A DNA stretch of 38,857 nt from Acetobacteraceae bacterium (lineage in GTDB: Bacteria > Pseudomonadota > Alphaproteobacteria > Acetobacterales > Acetobacteraceae), in assembly GCA_027487675.1 (NCBI GenBank), contig JAIYDD010000096.1:1-38857 (forward strand), written 5' to 3'. Position numbers and translations under genes: made by a program. The stretch's first letter is position 1. Each line of letters starts with the position of its first letter. Shown piece by piece: positions 27,973-38,857 of the stretch. A model generated the notes under the pieces. It was not told the DNA's origin. It made no database searches and saw nothing but the letters and a program-made list of their open reading frames with translations.

Positions 27973-29901
27973 TCAGGCCGCGGCGCGGAACGGCGTCAGG
28001 CAGAGATCGGGCAGCAGCGGATGGTTCGGCCGGTCGAGCGGGCCCGGCATCGGCTCGCTGCTCGGACCGTCGAACTCGTCCATGTCCCGCCGCAGCAGGG
28101 TCAGCTCCACCACCTGCGGGACCGGCACGCCCTGCACCAGCGCCATGCCGGCATAGTTGTTGGCGTGCAGGTGCACCGGCGCGTGGTGGCGCGTCAGCAC
28201 ATCCAGGCAGCGGCGCAGCCGGTCATGCATCTCCCGCGTGCCGAGCGCGCCGAGATCGTGCAGCTCGCAGACGATGACCTCGTAGGCCGCCAGCTGGTCG
28301 GGATCGATGGCGTCCAGCGCCGCGTATTCCGCGCCCTCCACGTCGAACTTCAGCAGCCGCCGCGGCGCGTCCACCGCCGTCGCGCGCCCATGCAGGTCGG
28401 CGAAGCTCAGCAGCAAGCCGTCGCTCGCCGGGCCCCAGCCGGCGCGGTGGAAGCGGAAATTCGCATGCGCCGCGGGCGGGCCCTCGACCGTGTGGTCGAA
28501 CTGCAGCACCTGCGCGCCGCGCTTCGCCAGCTCCAGGTCGAAGCTGACATCGTTGCCGACGCCGATGGACAGCACGACGCCGGCTTCCAGCGCGATCTCC
28601 GGCAGCACATAGCCGCCATCCCACGCGTTGCCGATGCGCGTCTTGCGCCCGCGCCGCATGGCGTGGGGGTGCATGCGCGCCAGCAGCGCCAGCACCTCCG
28701 CCTGCGAAGGGGGCGGCGCGGCGGGCGGCGGCACCGCGACGGTGCCGCCCGCGGCCAGCTCCAACAGCGCCTCCGCCGCCGCATCCCAGGAGAAGGCGCC
28801 GAGCAGCGCGGCGCGCGCCCCGGCCTGCGCCGGCGTATCGTCGCCGCGATCGGGGCGCACCGCCGCCATCGCCTCGACCAGCGCATCCATCGAGGGTTCC
28901 AGGAAGCGGCCGGGCGGGAAGCCCGCATCGCCGTCGCGCAGGCCAGGCCGCGCCGGCAGGCGGGTGGCGAGAAGGGAAGGGCAGAAGCCATCCGTCGCGC
29001 CGCCTTCGGTCACGATCACCGGCAGCCCCGCCGCGATCGCTTCCAGCACCGGCAGGTTGAAGCCCTCCGCGCGATAGGGCGAGACATAGGCATCCGCCGC
29101 GCCATACAGCTCCCGCAGCTGCGCGAGATCGAGCGCGCCGGGAACCAGGCTGATCGCCGCCAGCGTGTCCTGCCGCAGCAGCGACGGGCAGCGCGCGCCG
29201 ACCGCGGCGACGCTGTCGCCGACGCCCACGCCATACAGCGCCGACTGATCCTTCAACATCAGCCGCGCCGGCACGCCACGCGCGCGCAGATGGGCGAAGG
29301 CTTCCAGCAGCAGGTCGATGCCCTTGTTCCAGAAGGGGCCGCCGATGTTCAGCAGCACCACCTCCTCCGGCGCGAAGCCGAGCCGCGCGCGCACCGCCGC
29401 GCGCTGCGCGGCATCGAGCGGCCGGAACGAAGACGCGTCCACGCCATGCGGCACGATGCGGATGCGCCCCGGGTCGATCCCCGCCTCCGCGAGCCGGTCG
29501 CGTGACCAGGCTGAAGGCGTGACGACCAGATTGTCGTCCCGCGTGAAGAAGCCGCGATCCGCATCCGGCACGAAGCTGTTCGCGCCGAGCCCGAGCTCCG
29601 TCACCATGAAGCTGATCGTCCGCCGCGCATCATCCGGCGCACCGCTGCGGAAGGGTGAGCAGATGCGGTACACCGCATCCATCGCCTCGCCGGGCGGCAT
29701 TTCGCCCAGCGCCGCGATGCGCGCGGAATCCTCCACCGAAAGCCCCGCGCCCTGCGCGCCCGGCGTCCAGCCCAGCGGCATCGGCAGGTCGCGATGGAAC
29801 AGCCGCAGCCCCGGCCGCTTCAGCAGCGACAGGATCTGGAACTGGTTCACCATGGCGAAGGAGTGGTGCACCCCCCGCCAGCCTTCGATCAGCAGCCGCA
29901 T
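27973..29901 (-). CDS. GT4-type glycosyltransferase fused to an FkbM/METTL24-like methyltransferase
   Basis: 642 residues from ATG 29901, preceded by GAGAGGAA. The N-terminal part (about 90-385) is a GT-B glycosyltransferase: RIRIVPHGVDASSFRP, GGPFWNKGIDLLLEAF and SPYRAEGFNLPVLEAIAAG, with the E-x7-E motif at 279-287. A Pro/Ala linker (389-398) joins a methyltransferase (about 410-640): DGGYVLPE, LSIGVGNDVSFDLELAKRG as SAM-binding strand, and LKFDVEGAEYAAL. A sugar could be added and then methylated by one protein. It is divergent, across only 55 bp, from the type I secretion genes, which suggests a shared role with them. The acceptor is unknown. Confidence 0.85.
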   Translation of the reverse strand: MRLLIEGWRGVHHSFAMVNQFQILSLLKRPGLRLFHRDLPMPLGWTPGAQGAGLSVEDSARIAALGEMPPGEAMDAVYRICSPFRSGAPDDARRTISFMVTELGLGANSFVPDADRGFFTRDDNLVVTPSAWSRDRLAEAGIDPGRIRIVPHGVDASSFRPLDAAQRAAVRARLGFAPEEVVLLNIGGPFWNKGIDLLLEAFAHLRARGVPARLMLKDQSALYGVGVGDSVAAVGARCPSLLRQDTLAAISLVPGALDLAQLRELYGAADAYVSPYRAEGFNLPVLEAIAAGLPVIVTEGGATDGFCPSLLATRLPARPGLRDGDAGFPPGRFLEPSMDALVEAMAAVRPDRGDDTPAQAGARAALLGAFSWDAAAEALLELAAGGTVAVPPPAAPPPSQAEVLALLARMHPHAMRRGRKTRIGNAWDGGYVLPEIALEAGVVLSIGVGNDVSFDLELAKRGAQVLQFDHTVEGPPAAHANFRFHRAGWGPASDGLLLSFADLHGRATAVDAPRRLLKFDVEGAEYAALDAIDPDQLAAYEVIVCELHDLGALGTREMHDRLRRCLDVLTRHHAPVHLHANNYAGMALVQGVPVPQVVELTLLRRDMDEFDGPSSEPMPGPLDRPNHPLLPDLCLTPFRAAA

Positions 29902-32164: not shown

Positions 32165-33492
32165 GGGTGGTCGCCGCCCGCCGCCGCCGCGGCCGCAAGC
32201 CCGCCCTGGCGCCGGAAGCGCTCGCCTTCCAGGACGAGCTGGACGCACTCGTCGCGGAGCCCGCGCCGCTCGGCCTGCGGCTCTGGCCCGCCTTGGCCGG
32301 CGGGCTGGTGCTCGCGCTGCTGTTGGCGGCCGGCCTGATGCGGATCGACGTGGTGGTGACCGGCCAGGGCCGGCTGATGACCGATGCGCCGCCCGTCGTG
32401 CTGCAACCCATGGATCGGGCGGTGCTGCGCGAACTGCGCGTGAAGCCCGGCGACCGGGTGCGCGAGGGCGACGTGCTCGCCGTGCTCGACCCCACCTTCA
32501 CCGAGGCCGATCGCGAGGCCCTGGCCGTCCAGCGCGCCACGCTTGCCGCCCAGCTCGACCGGCTGGAGGCCGAGCGCGCCGGCCGCCTTCCGCCGCTGGC
32601 CGCCGATGCGGAGTCCGAGCTGCAATTCCTGCTGCTCGCCCGCCGCCTCGCCTTCCGCGCGGCCCGCCAGGCGGCGCTGGAGGCGGAACTGCGCAGCGCG
32701 GAGGCGGCGCTTGAGACGGAGCGCAGCCAGGCCGGCGCCATCGCCGAGAAGCTCGCCGTGGCGCGCGAGGTGGAGTCGATGCGGACGCGGCTGATGGAAG
32801 GCCAGGTCGGCTCCCGCCTCAACCTGCTCTCCGCCCGCGTCGCCCGTCTCGAAGCCGAGCAGGATCAGCGCCGCGCCGAGGCGCGCCTCCAGGAAGCCGG
32901 CCACCGCCTGGCCGCCCGCCGCGCGGACCGCGAAGCGTTCCTGGAAGACTGGCAGCGCGGCGTGATGGAGGAACTGGTGCGTGTCCGCGCCGATCTTGCG
33001 CGCGTCGACGAACAGCTCGCCAAGGCCCGCCGCCTGGAAGCGCTGACCCTGCTGCGCGCACCGCGCGACGGCGTGGTGCTGGAACATGCGCGCCGCGCGC
33101 CGGGCTCCCTGGTCGCGGCCGGCGAGCCCGTCGTGGTGCTGGTCCCTGCCGACGTGCCGCTGATCGCGGAGGTCAACTTGCGCTCCTCCGATGTCGGCCG
33201 GCTCGGTCCCGGCGACGCCGCGCTGGTGAAGATCGATGCCTTCCCCTGGCGCCGCCACGGCGCGGTGGCGGGCCGGCTGCGCGCCGTCAGCCGCGACAGC
33301 GTCCAGCCAGAAGGCGGCGGCGGCGCCTTCCACCGCGCACAGATCGAGCTCGGCGCCGGCCTCTCGCCGCAGGCCGAGCCCATCCCCGGCATGACCCTGA
33401 ACGCGGAGATCAAGGTCGGCACCCGCAGCGTGCTCGGCTTCTTCCTCGAGCCGCTGATCCGCGGCCTGCAGGAAAGCCTGCGCGAGCCCTGA
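32161..33492 (+). CDS. HlyD-type membrane fusion adaptor of type I secretion
   Basis: 443 residues; its ATG overlaps the ABC transporter stop (ATGA), so they are translationally coupled. A basic cytoplasmic N-terminus (1-38) leads to one membrane helix (about 41-60). LQPMDRAVLRELRVKPGDRV (about 81-100) is the first half of the lipoyl-like domain, a long helical hairpin runs from about 115 to 310, and LRAPRDGVVLEHARRAPGSL is the second half. The end, GMTLNAEIKVGTRSVLGFFLEPL, is the HlyD C-terminal signature. It links the ABC transporter to the outer-membrane channel. Its stop lies nine bases from that of the convergent GT41 gene. Confidence 0.95.
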
Positions 33493-35373: not shown

Positions 35374-35612
35374 GCGCGCATCCTGCGGCGGGGTTGGGGC
35401 GCCAGCATCGCGCGCGGCCCGTGAAGAATCCGTGCAGCCGCGGCCGTCGCGCCGGGCGATGCGATGCGCCGCTGCGGTTAACTCCGGGGCAACCCCGCAT
35501 CGGCAGACTGCCGACGCTCACGGGCGACAAGATGTTCCCCGGACGCGTCCGCGTCGGCGACGGTCATGTCCGTCGCCGCGGGTGCGGCCAGTCACGCACG
35601 GGGACTCCGCGC
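35374..35612. promoter_or_regulatory. divergent control region before the giant repeat gene
   Basis: This 239-bp gap separates the GT41 gene from the giant repeat gene. GGTTAACTCCGGGG near 35477-35490 is the only AT-containing palindrome-like spot (GTTAAC). A second in-frame ATG at 35532 could add 27 codons, but it has only a weak ribosome-binding site and its residues (with Cys, His and Pro) do not resemble the repeats. GGGGA eight bases before 35613 supports that start. No operator can be defined. Confidence 0.4.
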
Positions 35613-38600
35613 ATGTCCGTCTTCGCCTCGCTCACCACGGCCCAGATCCAGCAGATCTCGACCGAGGTGATTTCCGGCCTGAGCACGGCCGACATCCGCG
35701 CCATGTCGACGGCGCAGGTCGTGGCCCTGACCACGGACCAGATGGCGGCGCTCGGAACCCTGCAGGTCTCCGCCTTCAGCTCCGTCCAGCTGCGGGCGAT
35801 GGAAACCGAAGACCTCGCCGCGATCGGCACCACGCAGATCCGTGCCCTGGCCGCGGAGCAGCTCGCCGCCCTGGCGACGGACCGGCTCACCGCGCTGACC
35901 TCGGACCAGCTCGGCAGCCTCACCTCGGGCCAGATCGCCGGCATCACCTCGGCACAGCTGGCCGCGCTCAGCACCGCGCAGCTCGGCGAGCTCGGCTCCG
36001 CGCAGCTGCGCGGCCTGTCCACCGCGGCCATCCGCGGCATGACGACTGCGCAGGTGGAGGCGCTGGAGACCGGCCACCTCGTCTCCATCTCGGCGGCCAC
36101 GCTCGGGGCGTTCGGCACCGCGCAGGTGGTCGCGCTGACCACCGACCAGGCGGCCGCGCTGACCACCTCGCAGGTCGCGGCACTCGGCTCCGCGCAGCTG
36201 CGCGCGATGGAGACGGCCGACCTCGCGGCGCTGACCACCGCCCAGCTGCGCGCGCTGAGCGCCGCGCAGCTCGGCGGGCTGACCACCGCGCAGGTCGCCG
36301 CGCTCACCACCGAGCAGGCCGGCGCGCTCGGCTCCGCCCAGCTCGCGGGCTTCGGCTCGGGGCAGATCGCCGCGCTGACGACCGAGCAGGTGGCGGAACT
36401 GTCCTCCACCGCGCTGGCCGGCCTGACCACCGCCGCCGTGCGGGGCCTGACGACCGCGCAGGTCGAGGCGCTGACCACCGACCAGCTGTCGCGCCTGTCC
36501 GCCGCGACCCTGGGCGCGCTCGGCACCGCGCAGGTCGTGGCGCTGACGACGGAGCAGGCCGCCGCGCTGACCACCTCGCAGGTCGCGGCGCTCGGCTCCG
36601 TGCAGCTGCGCGCGATGGAGACGGCCGACCTGGCGGCCCTGACCACGTCGCAGGTGCGCGCGCTGACCGCGGCCGGCGTCGGTGCGCTGACGACGGCGCA
36701 GGTCGCGGCGTTGACGACCGAGCAGGCGGGGGCGCTCGGCTCCGCGCAGCTGGCCGGGCTCGGCTCGGCGCAGCTCGCCGTGCTCACCACCGAACAGGTG
36801 GCGGAGCTCTCCTCCGCCGCGGTCGCGGGCCTGACCACGGCCGCGATCCGCGGCCTGACCACCGCCCAGGTCGAGGCGCTCGGCACCGCGCAGCTGTCGC
36901 GCCTGTCCGCCGCCACCATCGGCGCGCTCGGCACCGCGCAGCTCGTCGCGCTGACGACGGAGCAGGCGGCCGCGCTGACCACCGCGCAGATCGCCGCGCT
37001 GACCTCCGCCCAGGCGCGCGCGATGGAGACGGCCGATCTCGCCGCGCTGACCACCGCGCAGATCCGCGCGCTCGGCGCGGCGCAGGTCGCCGGGCTGACC
37101 AGCGCGCAGGTCGAGGCGCTGACCACGGACCAGGCGGGCGCCCTGACCTCCGCGCAGCTCGCCGGCTTCGGCTCCGCCCAGCTCGGCGCGCTCAGCACGG
37201 AACAGCTGTCGCAGATCGCCTCCGGCGCCCTGGGCGGCCTGACCACCGCCGCGATGCGCGGGCTCACCACGGCGCAGGTGGAGGCGCTGACGACCGGGCA
37301 GGTCGCAAGCCTGTCCGCCGCCACGCTCGGCGCGCTCGGCACGGCGCAGGTGGTCGCCCTGACCACGGACCAGGCGGCGGCGCTGACCACGGCGCAGCTG
37401 GCGGGCCTCGGCTCGCTGCAGCTCCGCGCGATGGAGACCGCCGACCTCGCGGCGCTGACCACCGATCAGCTGCGCGGCCTGACCGCCGCCGGCTTCGGCG
37501 CGCTGGCGACGGCGCAGCTCGCCGCCCTGACCACCACGCAGATGGGCGCGCTGAGCTCCGGCCAGCTGGGCGGCCTCGGCTCCGCGCAGATCGCCGCGCT
37601 GACCACCGAGCAGCTGGCGGAGATCGGCTCGGCCGCCTTCGCCGGCCTGACCACGGCCGGCATCCGCGGCCTGACCACGGCGCAGGTGGAGGCGCTGACC
37701 ACCGCGCAGCTGTCGCGCCTTGCCGCCGCCGCGCTGGGCGGGCTGGGCACCGCGCAGGTCGTCGCGCTGACCACCGCGCAGGCCGCGGCGCTGACCACCG
37801 CGCAGCTGGCCGGCCTGGCCTCGACCCAGATGCGGGCGATGGAAACGGCGGACCTCGCCGCGCTGACCAGCGCGCAGCTGCGCGCGCTGAGCGCGCCCGC
37901 GATCGCTGCCCTGACGACGGCGCAGATCGAGGCGCTCACCACCGAGCAGGCCGGCGCGCTGACCTCCGTGCAGCTCGCGGGTCTCGGTTCCGCCCAGGTC
38001 GCGGCGCTGACGACCGCGCAGCTCGTGCAGGTCGGCACGGCCGCCATCGCCGGCCTCGGCACCGCCGCCGTGCGCGGCCTGACCACGGCGCAGATCGAGG
38101 CGCTGACCACCGGGCAGATCGCCAGGCTGTCCGCCGCGACCATCGCGAGCCTGTCCACCGCCCAGGTCGTCGCCCTGACCACCGACCAGGCCGTCGCCCT
38201 GACCACGACACAGGTCGCGGCGCTCACCTCCGTCCAGTCGCGCGCGCTGGAAACCGCCGATCTGGCCGCCCTGACCACCGCGCAGCTTCGCGCCCTCAGC
38301 GCCCGCGGGATCGGCGGGCTCGGCACCGCGCAGATCGAGGCGCTGACCACCGACCAGGCAGGCGCCCTGACCTCGGCGCAGCTCGGCGCCTTCGGCTCGG
38401 CGCAGGTCGCGGCGATGACGACCGGCCAGGTCGCGCAGCTCTCCACCGAGGCGATGGGCGGCCTCGGCACGGCCGGCATCCGCGGCCTGACCACGACGCA
38501 GCTCGAGGCGATGAGCACGGCCCAGCTGTCGCGGCTTTCCGGCACCGCCTTCAGCGGCCTCGGCACCGCGCAGGTCGTGGCGCTGTCCACCCAGCAGACC

Positions 38601-38857
38601 TCCGCCCTCACCACCGCGCAGATCGCCGCGCTGACATCCGCGCAGGCCCGCGCGCTGGAGACCGCCGACCTCGCCGCGCTCACCACCGCGCAGGTCCGCG
38701 CCCTCAGCGCCGCGGTGCTCGCCGCGCTGACCACCGGCCAGGTCGCGGCGCTGACCACCGAGCAGGCGCAGCCGCTGACCTCGGCGCAGCTTGCCGGCTT
38801 CACCTCCGCGCAGATCGCGGCGCTGACGACGGAGCAGATCGCGCAGGTCAGCTCCGC
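35613..38857 (+). CDS. giant Thr/Ser-rich octapeptide-repeat protein, 3' end outside window
   Basis: The frame is open from ATG 35613 to the window end, 1081 complete codons, and I translated all of it without a stop. After a six-residue leader, MSVFAS, everything is octads of the form L-T/S/G-T/S-x-Q-V/I/L-x-A/G, 134 complete ones plus three residues. There is no signal peptide or membrane segment. I see no Lys, Asn, Cys, Trp or Tyr, one His and two Pro. Such composition and no N-terminal signal fit a type I secretion substrate, whose signal would be at the unseen C-terminus. The neighbouring ABC-HlyD pair and GT41 enzyme suggest export and O-glycosylation. An adhesin, sheath or surface-layer role is a guess; I do not recognise the family. 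Confidence 0.9.
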   Translation, partial: MSVFASLTTAQIQQISTEVISGLSTADIRAMSTAQVVALTTDQMAALGTLQVSAFSSVQLRAMETEDLAAIGTTQIRALAAEQLAALATDRLTALTSDQLGSLTSGQIAGITSAQLAALSTAQLGELGSAQLRGLSTAAIRGMTTAQVEALETGHLVSISAATLGAFGTAQVVALTTDQAAALTTSQVAALGSAQLRAMETADLAALTTAQLRALSAAQLGGLTTAQVAALTTEQAGALGSAQLAGFGSGQIAALTTEQVAELSSTALAGLTTAAVRGLTTAQVEALTTDQLSRLSAATLGALGTAQVVALTTEQAAALTTSQVAALGSVQLRAMETADLAALTTSQVRALTAAGVGALTTAQVAALTTEQAGALGSAQLAGLGSAQLAVLTTEQVAELSSAAVAGLTTAAIRGLTTAQVEALGTAQLSRLSAATIGALGTAQLVALTTEQAAALTTAQIAALTSAQARAMETADLAALTTAQIRALGAAQVAGLTSAQVEALTTDQAGALTSAQLAGFGSAQLGALSTEQLSQIASGALGGLTTAAMRGLTTAQVEALTTGQVASLSAATLGALGTAQVVALTTDQAAALTTAQLAGLGSLQLRAMETADLAALTTDQLRGLTAAGFGALATAQLAALTTTQMGALSSGQLGGLGSAQIAALTTEQLAEIGSAAFAGLTTAGIRGLTTAQVEALTTAQLSRLAAAALGGLGTAQVVALTTAQAAALTTAQLAGLASTQMRAMETADLAALTSAQLRALSAPAIAALTTAQIEALTTEQAGALTSVQLAGLGSAQVAALTTAQLVQVGTAAIAGLGTAAVRGLTTAQIEALTTGQIARLSAATIASLSTAQVVALTTDQAVALTTTQVAALTSVQSRALETADLAALTTAQLRALSARGIGGLGTAQIEALTTDQAGALTSAQLGAFGSAQVAAMTTGQVAQLSTEAMGGLGTAGIRGLTTTQLEAMSTAQLSRLSGTAFSGLGTAQVVALSTQQTSALTTAQIAALTSAQARALETADLAALTTAQVRALSAAVLAALTTGQVAALTTEQAQPLTSAQLAGFTSAQIAALTTEQIAQVSS
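35799..38857 (+). repeat. 408-bp tandem superrepeat, 17 octads each
   Basis: The octad METADLAA (or METEDLAA, LETADLAA) recurs at 35799, 36207, 36615, 37023, 37431, 37839, 38247 and 38655, always exactly 408 bp apart. Between anchors each of the 17 octads keeps its own character: octad 2 ends Q-x-R-A or R-G, octad 5 mostly reads TT(E/D)QAGA-like, octad 10 lacks Gln and ends R-G, octad 12 is mostly QLSR, octad 14 is mostly GTAQVVA. The seven octads before 35799 correspond to octads 11-17. Copies differ at many third positions and some residues, so the duplication is not recent. Confidence 0.95.

Follow-up and report, generated by a model that had tools for sequence, protein, structure and literature searches.

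Introduction

Type I secreted giant adhesins of the RTX/LapA class are giant repetitive proteins, and the gene described here resembles them in encoding a giant repetitive protein beside HlyB/HlyD-type genes. It lies at the end of a 38,857-nucleotide contig of an Acetobacteraceae bacterium (contig JAIYDD010000096.1 of assembly GCA_027487675.1), which was analysed at its full length and is called the window below, and it consists of eight-residue repeats, or octads, of the Pfam family PF20080. The repeats themselves set it apart, as those of the RTX/LapA class are Ig- or cadherin-like, while the window protein is helical in our models and does not match the RTX calcium repeats.

The nearest precedent in logic, cytoplasmic glycosylation of a large exported protein by an enzyme of glycosyltransferase family 41 (GT41), is the HMW1/HMW1C system. 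In the parts of the report consulted, HMW1C, of the GT41 family, glycosylates the large adhesin HMW1 in the cytoplasm before export, and its loss leads to partial degradation of the adhesin and poor tethering (PMC3012730). That system exports its adhesin by two-partner secretion, has Asn as acceptor and relies on an enzyme lacking tetratricopeptide repeats (TPRs), whereas the window has type I secretion genes, a TPR enzyme and Thr/Ser-rich helical octads. The Pfam "ALTTAQ repeat" has the same octad as the window protein, and its entry, as viewed, gives the name only. To our knowledge, the natural substrates of bacterial enzymes of the O-GlcNAc transferase (OGT) type are mostly unknown. The gene context, the turn length and the GT41 link of PF20080 that we report here were obtained in the present analysis.

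Results

A plus-strand frame without stop codons opens at ATG 35613 and reaches the last base of the contig, giving 1081 codons in translation. Counted from residue 6 on, it holds 134 octads in a single register with zero shifts; with octad positions numbered 0 to 7, position 1 is Leu, Met, Ile, Phe or Val in 134/134 and position 5 is Gln in 97/134. The relatives open likewise, with Met, a few residues and then LTTxQI, and a TTG at 35394 is an alternative upstream start in the same frame. At the DNA level, the array is a tandem repeat with a period of 408 bp, or 17 octads (score 2921), extending to the contig end, and its seven 408-bp copies are 70 to 82% identical. The differences among the copies fall as 545, 411 and 1032 at codon positions 1, 2 and 3 of the ATG 35613 frame, and this distribution led us to reject as genes both the minus-strand frames opposite the array (up to 1087 codons) and a second, overlapping plus-strand frame (ATG 35372, 1162 codons). 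The long antisense frames are taken as incidental to a repeat of 76% GC; opposite the relatives' arrays, such frames are long in L057 (2601 codons) and L077 (2388 codons) and only 368 codons in L078 (handles beginning with L and G are our own for loci and genomes). The initial annotation, which had counted 1081 stop-free codons and 134 octads and had dismissed the minus-strand frames as by-products of the repeat, was right on both points.

The source assembly comprises 288 contigs and 5.18 Mb, and since the window is one complete contig, the array ends where the assembly ends. A profile search of the same genome with PF20080 gave 31 matches, all on the window contig. We therefore rejected the idea that the gene continues on a further contig, and regard the missing 3' end as an assembly gap.

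The repeat gene belongs to PF20080 (ALTTAQ_rpt), which matched the array in 33 stretches with 848 bits against a gathering cut-off of 26.4 bits (E = 9.6e-263). A phmmer search of the PDB sequences gave 9zem, "HeliScrew4", as the best match (120 residues, 9.4e-14). By sequence, HeliScrew4 is like the window protein in having octads of the ALTPEQIA type, but it is short and has mostly Pro at position 3, where the window protein has Thr or Ser; from its name and sequence it is probably a designed protein. The earlier statement that the octad fits no described repeat class does not survive these two matches, one of them to a solved sequence relative; as for a well-described family, the octad is indeed catalogued, but our literature search yielded no function for it. 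In that search, whose scope excluded preprints and most subscription papers, no paper was found for the strings LTTAQV, HeliScrew and ALTTAQ, and the string matches to LTTAQ and PF20080 had unrelated titles. No Pfam match to the RTX calcium-binding nonapeptides (PF00353) was seen in the visible 1081 residues at E up to 1. A phage origin was rejected, with no tblastn match at E 1e-5 among 50,697 phage records (viral_contigs lay outside the search). The relatives' public records carry the names "ICE nucleation protein", "heme utilization protein" and "large exoprotein involved in heme utilization or adhesion", which would make this an ice-nucleation or heme-utilisation/haemagglutinin protein. 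We regard these names as almost certainly wrong, as neither the window protein (E up to 1) nor its Cereibacter relative (0.001) has an ice-nucleation or haemagglutinin family among its Pfam matches and the model is helical.

AlphaFold predicted one short helix per octad and no strands, with a pLDDT of 93.4 and a pTM of 0.84, and in two runs the helix of each octad starts at the second Thr. On these models the repeat protein is very probably an alpha-solenoid, in line with the initial suggestion that the octad forms the N-capping box of a short helix. The beta-solenoid that had been offered as the alternative would suit a short repeat made of small residues, and phmmer gave weak matches to leucine-rich-repeat proteins, but the helices and the absence of strands in both runs, together with the name HeliScrew4 of the best PDB sequence match, make it highly improbable. 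A Foldseek search, in whose library (up to 8 April 2026) 9zem did not come up, matched mesothelin (7ued, E 2.6e-5), an ARM/HEAT-like spiral that may be comparable as a compact solenoid of short helices; in the consulted parts of its report it is described as a nine-layered spiral of 24 short helices (PMC10035497).

A common period runs through the arrays. We assigned registers to arrays from many genomes and compared the similarity of their octads across lags. Superrepeat length varies with lineage. The window itself and Rhodovulum have 17 or 34 octads, and several genomes belonging to the window's genus have 48; the length is 24 for Niveispirillum and for Pseudoroseomonas, 38 for Nitrospirillum, and 27 and 44 for Pseudomonas. 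Each of these lengths lies near a multiple of 3.4. Lags of 9 in L111, 26 in L103 and 15 in L108 do not fit (each of these arrays has 37 to 48 octads), nor does a lag of 16 in L139 (363 octads with register jumps), although the spectral peak of L139 is at 3.39. Spectra were computed for 64 arrays of at least 70 octads, from 68 after L064, L088, L094 and L189 had been dropped as duplicates; as L064 and L094 are the same array, genome G013 is wholly outside this set. The band of 0.2845 to 0.3015 cycles per octad was the strongest in 43/64 arrays, among the top three in 61/64 and above all 100 octad-order shuffles in 62/64. One L197 array and L201 did not exceed every shuffle, and the band ranked lower than third in L078 and both L197 arrays. 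The mean band frequency over the 64 arrays was 0.2940 (standard deviation, 0.0021), equal to 3.40 octads or 27.2 residues, and folding back of its second to fifth harmonics accounts for the further peaks of the mean spectrum at 0.4125, 0.118, 0.178 and 0.4715.

We read this period, which is derived from sequence, as one turn of the solenoid, with about 106 degrees per octad. A helical layer is roughly 1 nm thick, and on that reading the 134 octads seen would make about 39 turns and a rod of some 40 nm, while the 5446-codon frame of G428 would come near 190 nm. The superrepeats correspond to nearly whole turns (17 octads to 5, 24 to 7, 38 to 11 and 48 to 14), so that duplication would lengthen the rod while its faces keep their orientation. 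Among nine arrays, position-3 Thr clustered at one azimuth in the window (z 9.5), L057 (15.0), L098 (14.6) and L203 (16.4) and more weakly in L126 (3.4), and was not among the reported features of L138; because the arrays share descent and octads arise by duplication, z-scores and P values are inflated, and this azimuth result suffers most. Ser is in antiphase to Thr largely because the sum of the two is nearly constant.

The neighbours of the repeat gene are listed in Table 1, and those for GT41 and type I secretion are the most telling on function. The GT41 gene is divergent from the repeat gene, with 240 bp between the starts, and its product has both the PF13844 catalytic domain and the TPRs that mark the class. 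Against solved structures it matched OGT (5e-79) and XcOGT (2.3e-76), and the Lys that aligns with the Lys of the OGT YKI motif, which we take to be catalytic, is invariant in five aligned GT41 sequences. The ABC transporter scored 575.3 bits with TIGR01846 and 474.3 bits with TIGR03375, each under the curated cut-off. The repeat gene thus has adjoining ABC and HlyD-type genes, as a type I cargo gene should. It is uncertain whether the GT4-type glycosyltransferase is part of the module. Elsewhere in the window, at 2084-2203, a GC-rich unit of 41 bp is repeated in tandem about three times.

Table 1. Repeat gene and neighbouring genes in the window
Feature	Coordinates	Strand	Evidence and remarks
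Giant ALTTAQ octad-repeat gene	35613..38857	+	1081 codons visible; 3' end cut by contig end
TPR and glycosyltransferase family 41 (O-GlcNAc transferase type), 623 aa	33502..35373	-	PF13844 7.5e-63
HlyD-type membrane fusion protein	32194..33492	+	TIGR01843 271.9 bits (over cut-off), PF13437; start approximate, from similarity
Type I secretion ABC transporter (HlyB/LssB-like), 735 aa	29957..32164	+	PF00664, PF00005
GT4-type glycosyltransferase, weak FkbM methyltransferase match	27973..29901	-	PF13692 2.7e-14, PF05050 7e-4

The pairing of array and GT41 recurs, also in distantly related Proteobacteria. Among 59 genomes searched as relatives, the window's own included, PF20080 was found in 19 and GT41 in 34, and in 16 of the 19 PF20080-bearing genomes the contig of the array also carries GT41 close by (G000, G001, G003, G004, G006, G008, G010, G012, G013, G014, G019, G020, G025, G029, G031 and G032). 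The gap between the two is below 300 bp in 12 of these 16 and 551 bp to 4.3 kb in the remaining four. G002 and G021 have a weak PF20080 match without GT41 beside it, and in G028 the array meets a contig edge. From the genome collection, the best 80 GT41 matches gave 79 loci with flanks of at most 10 kb, and an octad frame above 60 bits lay within 10 kb in 59 of them, while a reversed-frame control gave 0 matches among 5583 frames scanned. The record titles of the array-bearing loci name Acetobacteraceae, Rhodobacter, Rhodovulum, Azospirillum, Niveispirillum, Nitrospirillum, Duganella, Massilia, Rugamonas, Geomesophilobacter and Pseudomonas. In twelve of the 20 loci lacking an octad frame, GT41 is within 5 kb of a contig end, and eight had room for one. 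In an even draw of 398 genomes across the phylum, GT41 was present in 19 of 28 PF20080 genomes (the window's own and 18/27), with about 9 expected from the overall rate.

Type I secretion genes are present in the clusters of Cereibacter, Pseudomonas and Pseudoroseomonas plasmids; the module lies on annotated plasmids of Cereibacter sphaeroides 2.4.1 and KD131, the clusters of Pseudomonas sp. and P. asturiensis include TolC, and in G102, from another class, array, HlyD, ABC and GT41 genes are consecutive. All four TPR genes tested (Cereibacter 2.4.1, Pseudomonas sp., Rhodovastum and Rhizobium CCGE532) contain PF13844. In the Pseudoroseomonas cluster, two methyltransferase genes, a TPR gene and a gene for a UDP-glucuronate decarboxylase accompany an annotated OGT; the decarboxylase (L194:6127-7101) stands between the OGT and HlyD genes, where it hints at a pentose donor, with xylose as a candidate sugar, and the octad gene is annotated in pieces. 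On plasmid pA of the laboratory strain C. sphaeroides 2.4.1, the octad protein is WP_011836189.1, the GT41 enzyme WP_011836188.1 and the ABC transporter WP_011836187.1. An RTX/Calx-beta protein (PF03160, PF00353) adjoins the octad gene on this plasmid (L075:14719-17808), and this cluster may consequently have a second type I cargo. Flagellar genes adjoin the octad genes of the Rhodovastum atsumiense (L076) and Pseudorhizobium flavum (L196) plasmids.

Several observations concern whole lineages or paralogues. In one family (f69), 16 related genomes (e.g., G098, G157, G161 and G122) carry PF20080 arrays with frames up to 6436 codons, and some have many GT41 domains (47 matches in G098 and 43 in G157); this lineage seems to live on the octad-GT41 system. 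A second, irregular octad paralogue of about 1120 to 1190 residues is found in L067, L068 and L069 (G012, G006 and G004, respectively), with a conserved start MQVTS...LRAAGQ and the end -AALYG; it is richer in Pro and does not lie beside GT41. The record L195 (NZ_CP084753.1), labelled Roseateles sp. XES5 (UNVERIFIED_ORG), has katG, a peroxide-inducible activator and the octad gene in the Shinella order (compare L193), and the Roseateles label may be wrong.

If octads carry glycosylation sites, hydroxyl residues would be expected to replace Pro where GT41 adjoins. Helices favour Pro as their first residue. We compared 66 GT41-linked with 11 unlinked arrays, with P values that ignore kinship, after dropping L088, L093, L094, L189, L209 (at a contig end) and arrays below 40 octads. 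L060, L061, L064 and L070 were counted as linked by hand, the first three because GT41 lies in a neighbouring fetched stretch, and L070 by inference from the remaining half gene, which is on contig C55. Median position-3 Thr was 0.64 in linked and 0.31 in unlinked arrays (Mann-Whitney, 6e-7), Thr or Ser at this position 0.88 versus 0.53, Pro 0.01 versus 0.15 (2e-7), and Thr per octad 1.30 (0.75 to 2.31) versus 0.87 (0.73 to 0.99). On rhizobial plasmids, the linked arrays L078, L192 and L196 have 1.03 to 1.14 Thr per octad and the unlinked L186, L188, L191, L193 and L195 (the last labelled Roseateles) 0.73 to 0.95. In all three genomes in which both kinds were measured (G004, G006 and G407), the linked array is the higher in position-3 Thr.

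The arrays begin a few residues after Met, without an extension that, judged by eye, resembles a signal peptide, and those of the relatives end in short conserved tails; many alphaproteobacterial GT41-linked arrays end in -NALF plus one residue (e.g., L057, L090, L098 and L187), and an end of this kind, which the closest relatives share, is predicted for the window protein. The octad proteins of the Duganella and Pseudomonas type add a C-terminal domain of about 190 to 290 residues (DLNGDGVQT ... GLLALDRNGDGxINDGSELFG), common to L077, L123, L135, L148, L156 and L202, which has weak EF-hand matches only in Pfam and is perhaps a secretion or anchoring domain.

Discussion

We propose that the repeat gene would encode the carrier protein of a glycosylation-and-export module. 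The chain would form a long alpha-solenoid, each turn taking about 3.4 short helices, or 27 residues, and the TPR-GT41 enzyme would add sugar to Thr and Ser of the octads in the cytoplasm, mainly to the second Thr, the first helix residue. The HlyB/HlyD-type exporter would then secrete the chain without signal peptide cleavage, and outside the cell it would fold into a glycan-displaying rod that may serve as a surface adhesin, sheath or matrix fibre. Judged from gene content and sequence, it is likely that the repeat protein is exported by type I secretion, and the action of GT41 on the octads is likely to the same degree. That the whole chain holds, from a giant solenoid O-glycosylated in the cytoplasm by GT41 through type I export to a surface rod, is somewhat less probable, although we favour it.

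Several results weigh against this proposal. GT41 is far more common than PF20080 in the phylum survey (133 versus 28 of 398 genomes). Nine of the 28 PF20080 genomes have no GT41, eight of them with 1 to 5 PF20080 matches and G448 with a full array, and 16 of the 19 genomes having both belong to one family, outside which GT41 is present in 3/12. Eleven examined arrays have no GT41 in the fetched stretch, among them those of Thioclava, two Shinella records and the Roseateles-labelled record, the Rhizobium BG6 and lusitanum arrays, and the paralogous arrays of G004, G006, G012 and G407. GT41 is hence a frequent partner of the arrays and not a necessary one. The distributions of position-3 Thr overlap (0.30 to 0.88 in linked and 0.11 to 0.44 in unlinked arrays), with kinship ignored, and no more than 25 of the 79 best GT41 loci showed a type I secretion ABC gene within flanks of up to 10 kb, 23 of these 25 with an array. 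As for the fold, the single-sequence AlphaFold run was weaker, with a pLDDT of 82.0 and of 42.9 to 62.7 in the other four models, and it merges residues 74 to 94 into one long helix.

The arrays without GT41 would also suit an exported rod that is not glycosylated, with GT41 and the other glycosyltransferases serving another target, such as a secreted protein or flagellin, and being co-inherited in a surface-structure island; the RTX/Calx-beta protein that flanks the Cereibacter array on its other side and the flagellar genes near the Rhodovastum and Pseudorhizobium arrays offer such targets. The short gap between array and GT41 in most relatives that have the enzyme nearby is less easily explained in this way, as is the Thr/Ser signature, which tracks GT41 linkage even within the three genomes having both kinds of array, and we consider an unglycosylated rod unlikely. 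The scarcity of type I secretion genes in the best GT41 loci bears instead on export. Helical solenoids are often scaffolds, and one that stays in the cytoplasm could bind the TPR domain of GT41 or other partners while the type I system exports something else, for which the start of the protein, unlike a signal peptide, would be suitable. Type I cargo has no N-terminal signals in any case, and the secretion genes adjoin the array in several lineages, with TolC in the P. asturiensis and Pseudomonas sp. clusters, which leaves an intracellular scaffold distinctly improbable.

Of these possibilities, we keep to the glycosylated and exported rod. Our search for literature on GT41 or OGT together with type I secretion and giant or octapeptide repeats returned nothing on point, which does not prove absence, and in the literature searched both the coupling of an OGT-type GT41 and type I secretion to an alpha-helical octad rod and the 3.40-octad turn seem to be undescribed. 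More tentatively, and with rather less than even confidence, we suggest a widespread undescribed surface system in which an OGT-type enzyme and type I secretion would make rods of up to several thousand residues on a lattice of 3.40 units per turn, with glycosylated Thr and other residues striped along fixed faces and whole-turn duplications making the rod a sequence-programmed glycan ruler.

In conclusion, PF20080 now has a model of its fold and a sequence-derived turn length, together with a probable modifying enzyme and a probable route of export, and in the octad nature offers a very simple unit for building rods. If the proposal is true, bacterial OGT-type enzymes would acquire a clear substrate class, and type I secretion would acquire a class of giant cargo that is alpha-helical and glycosylated.

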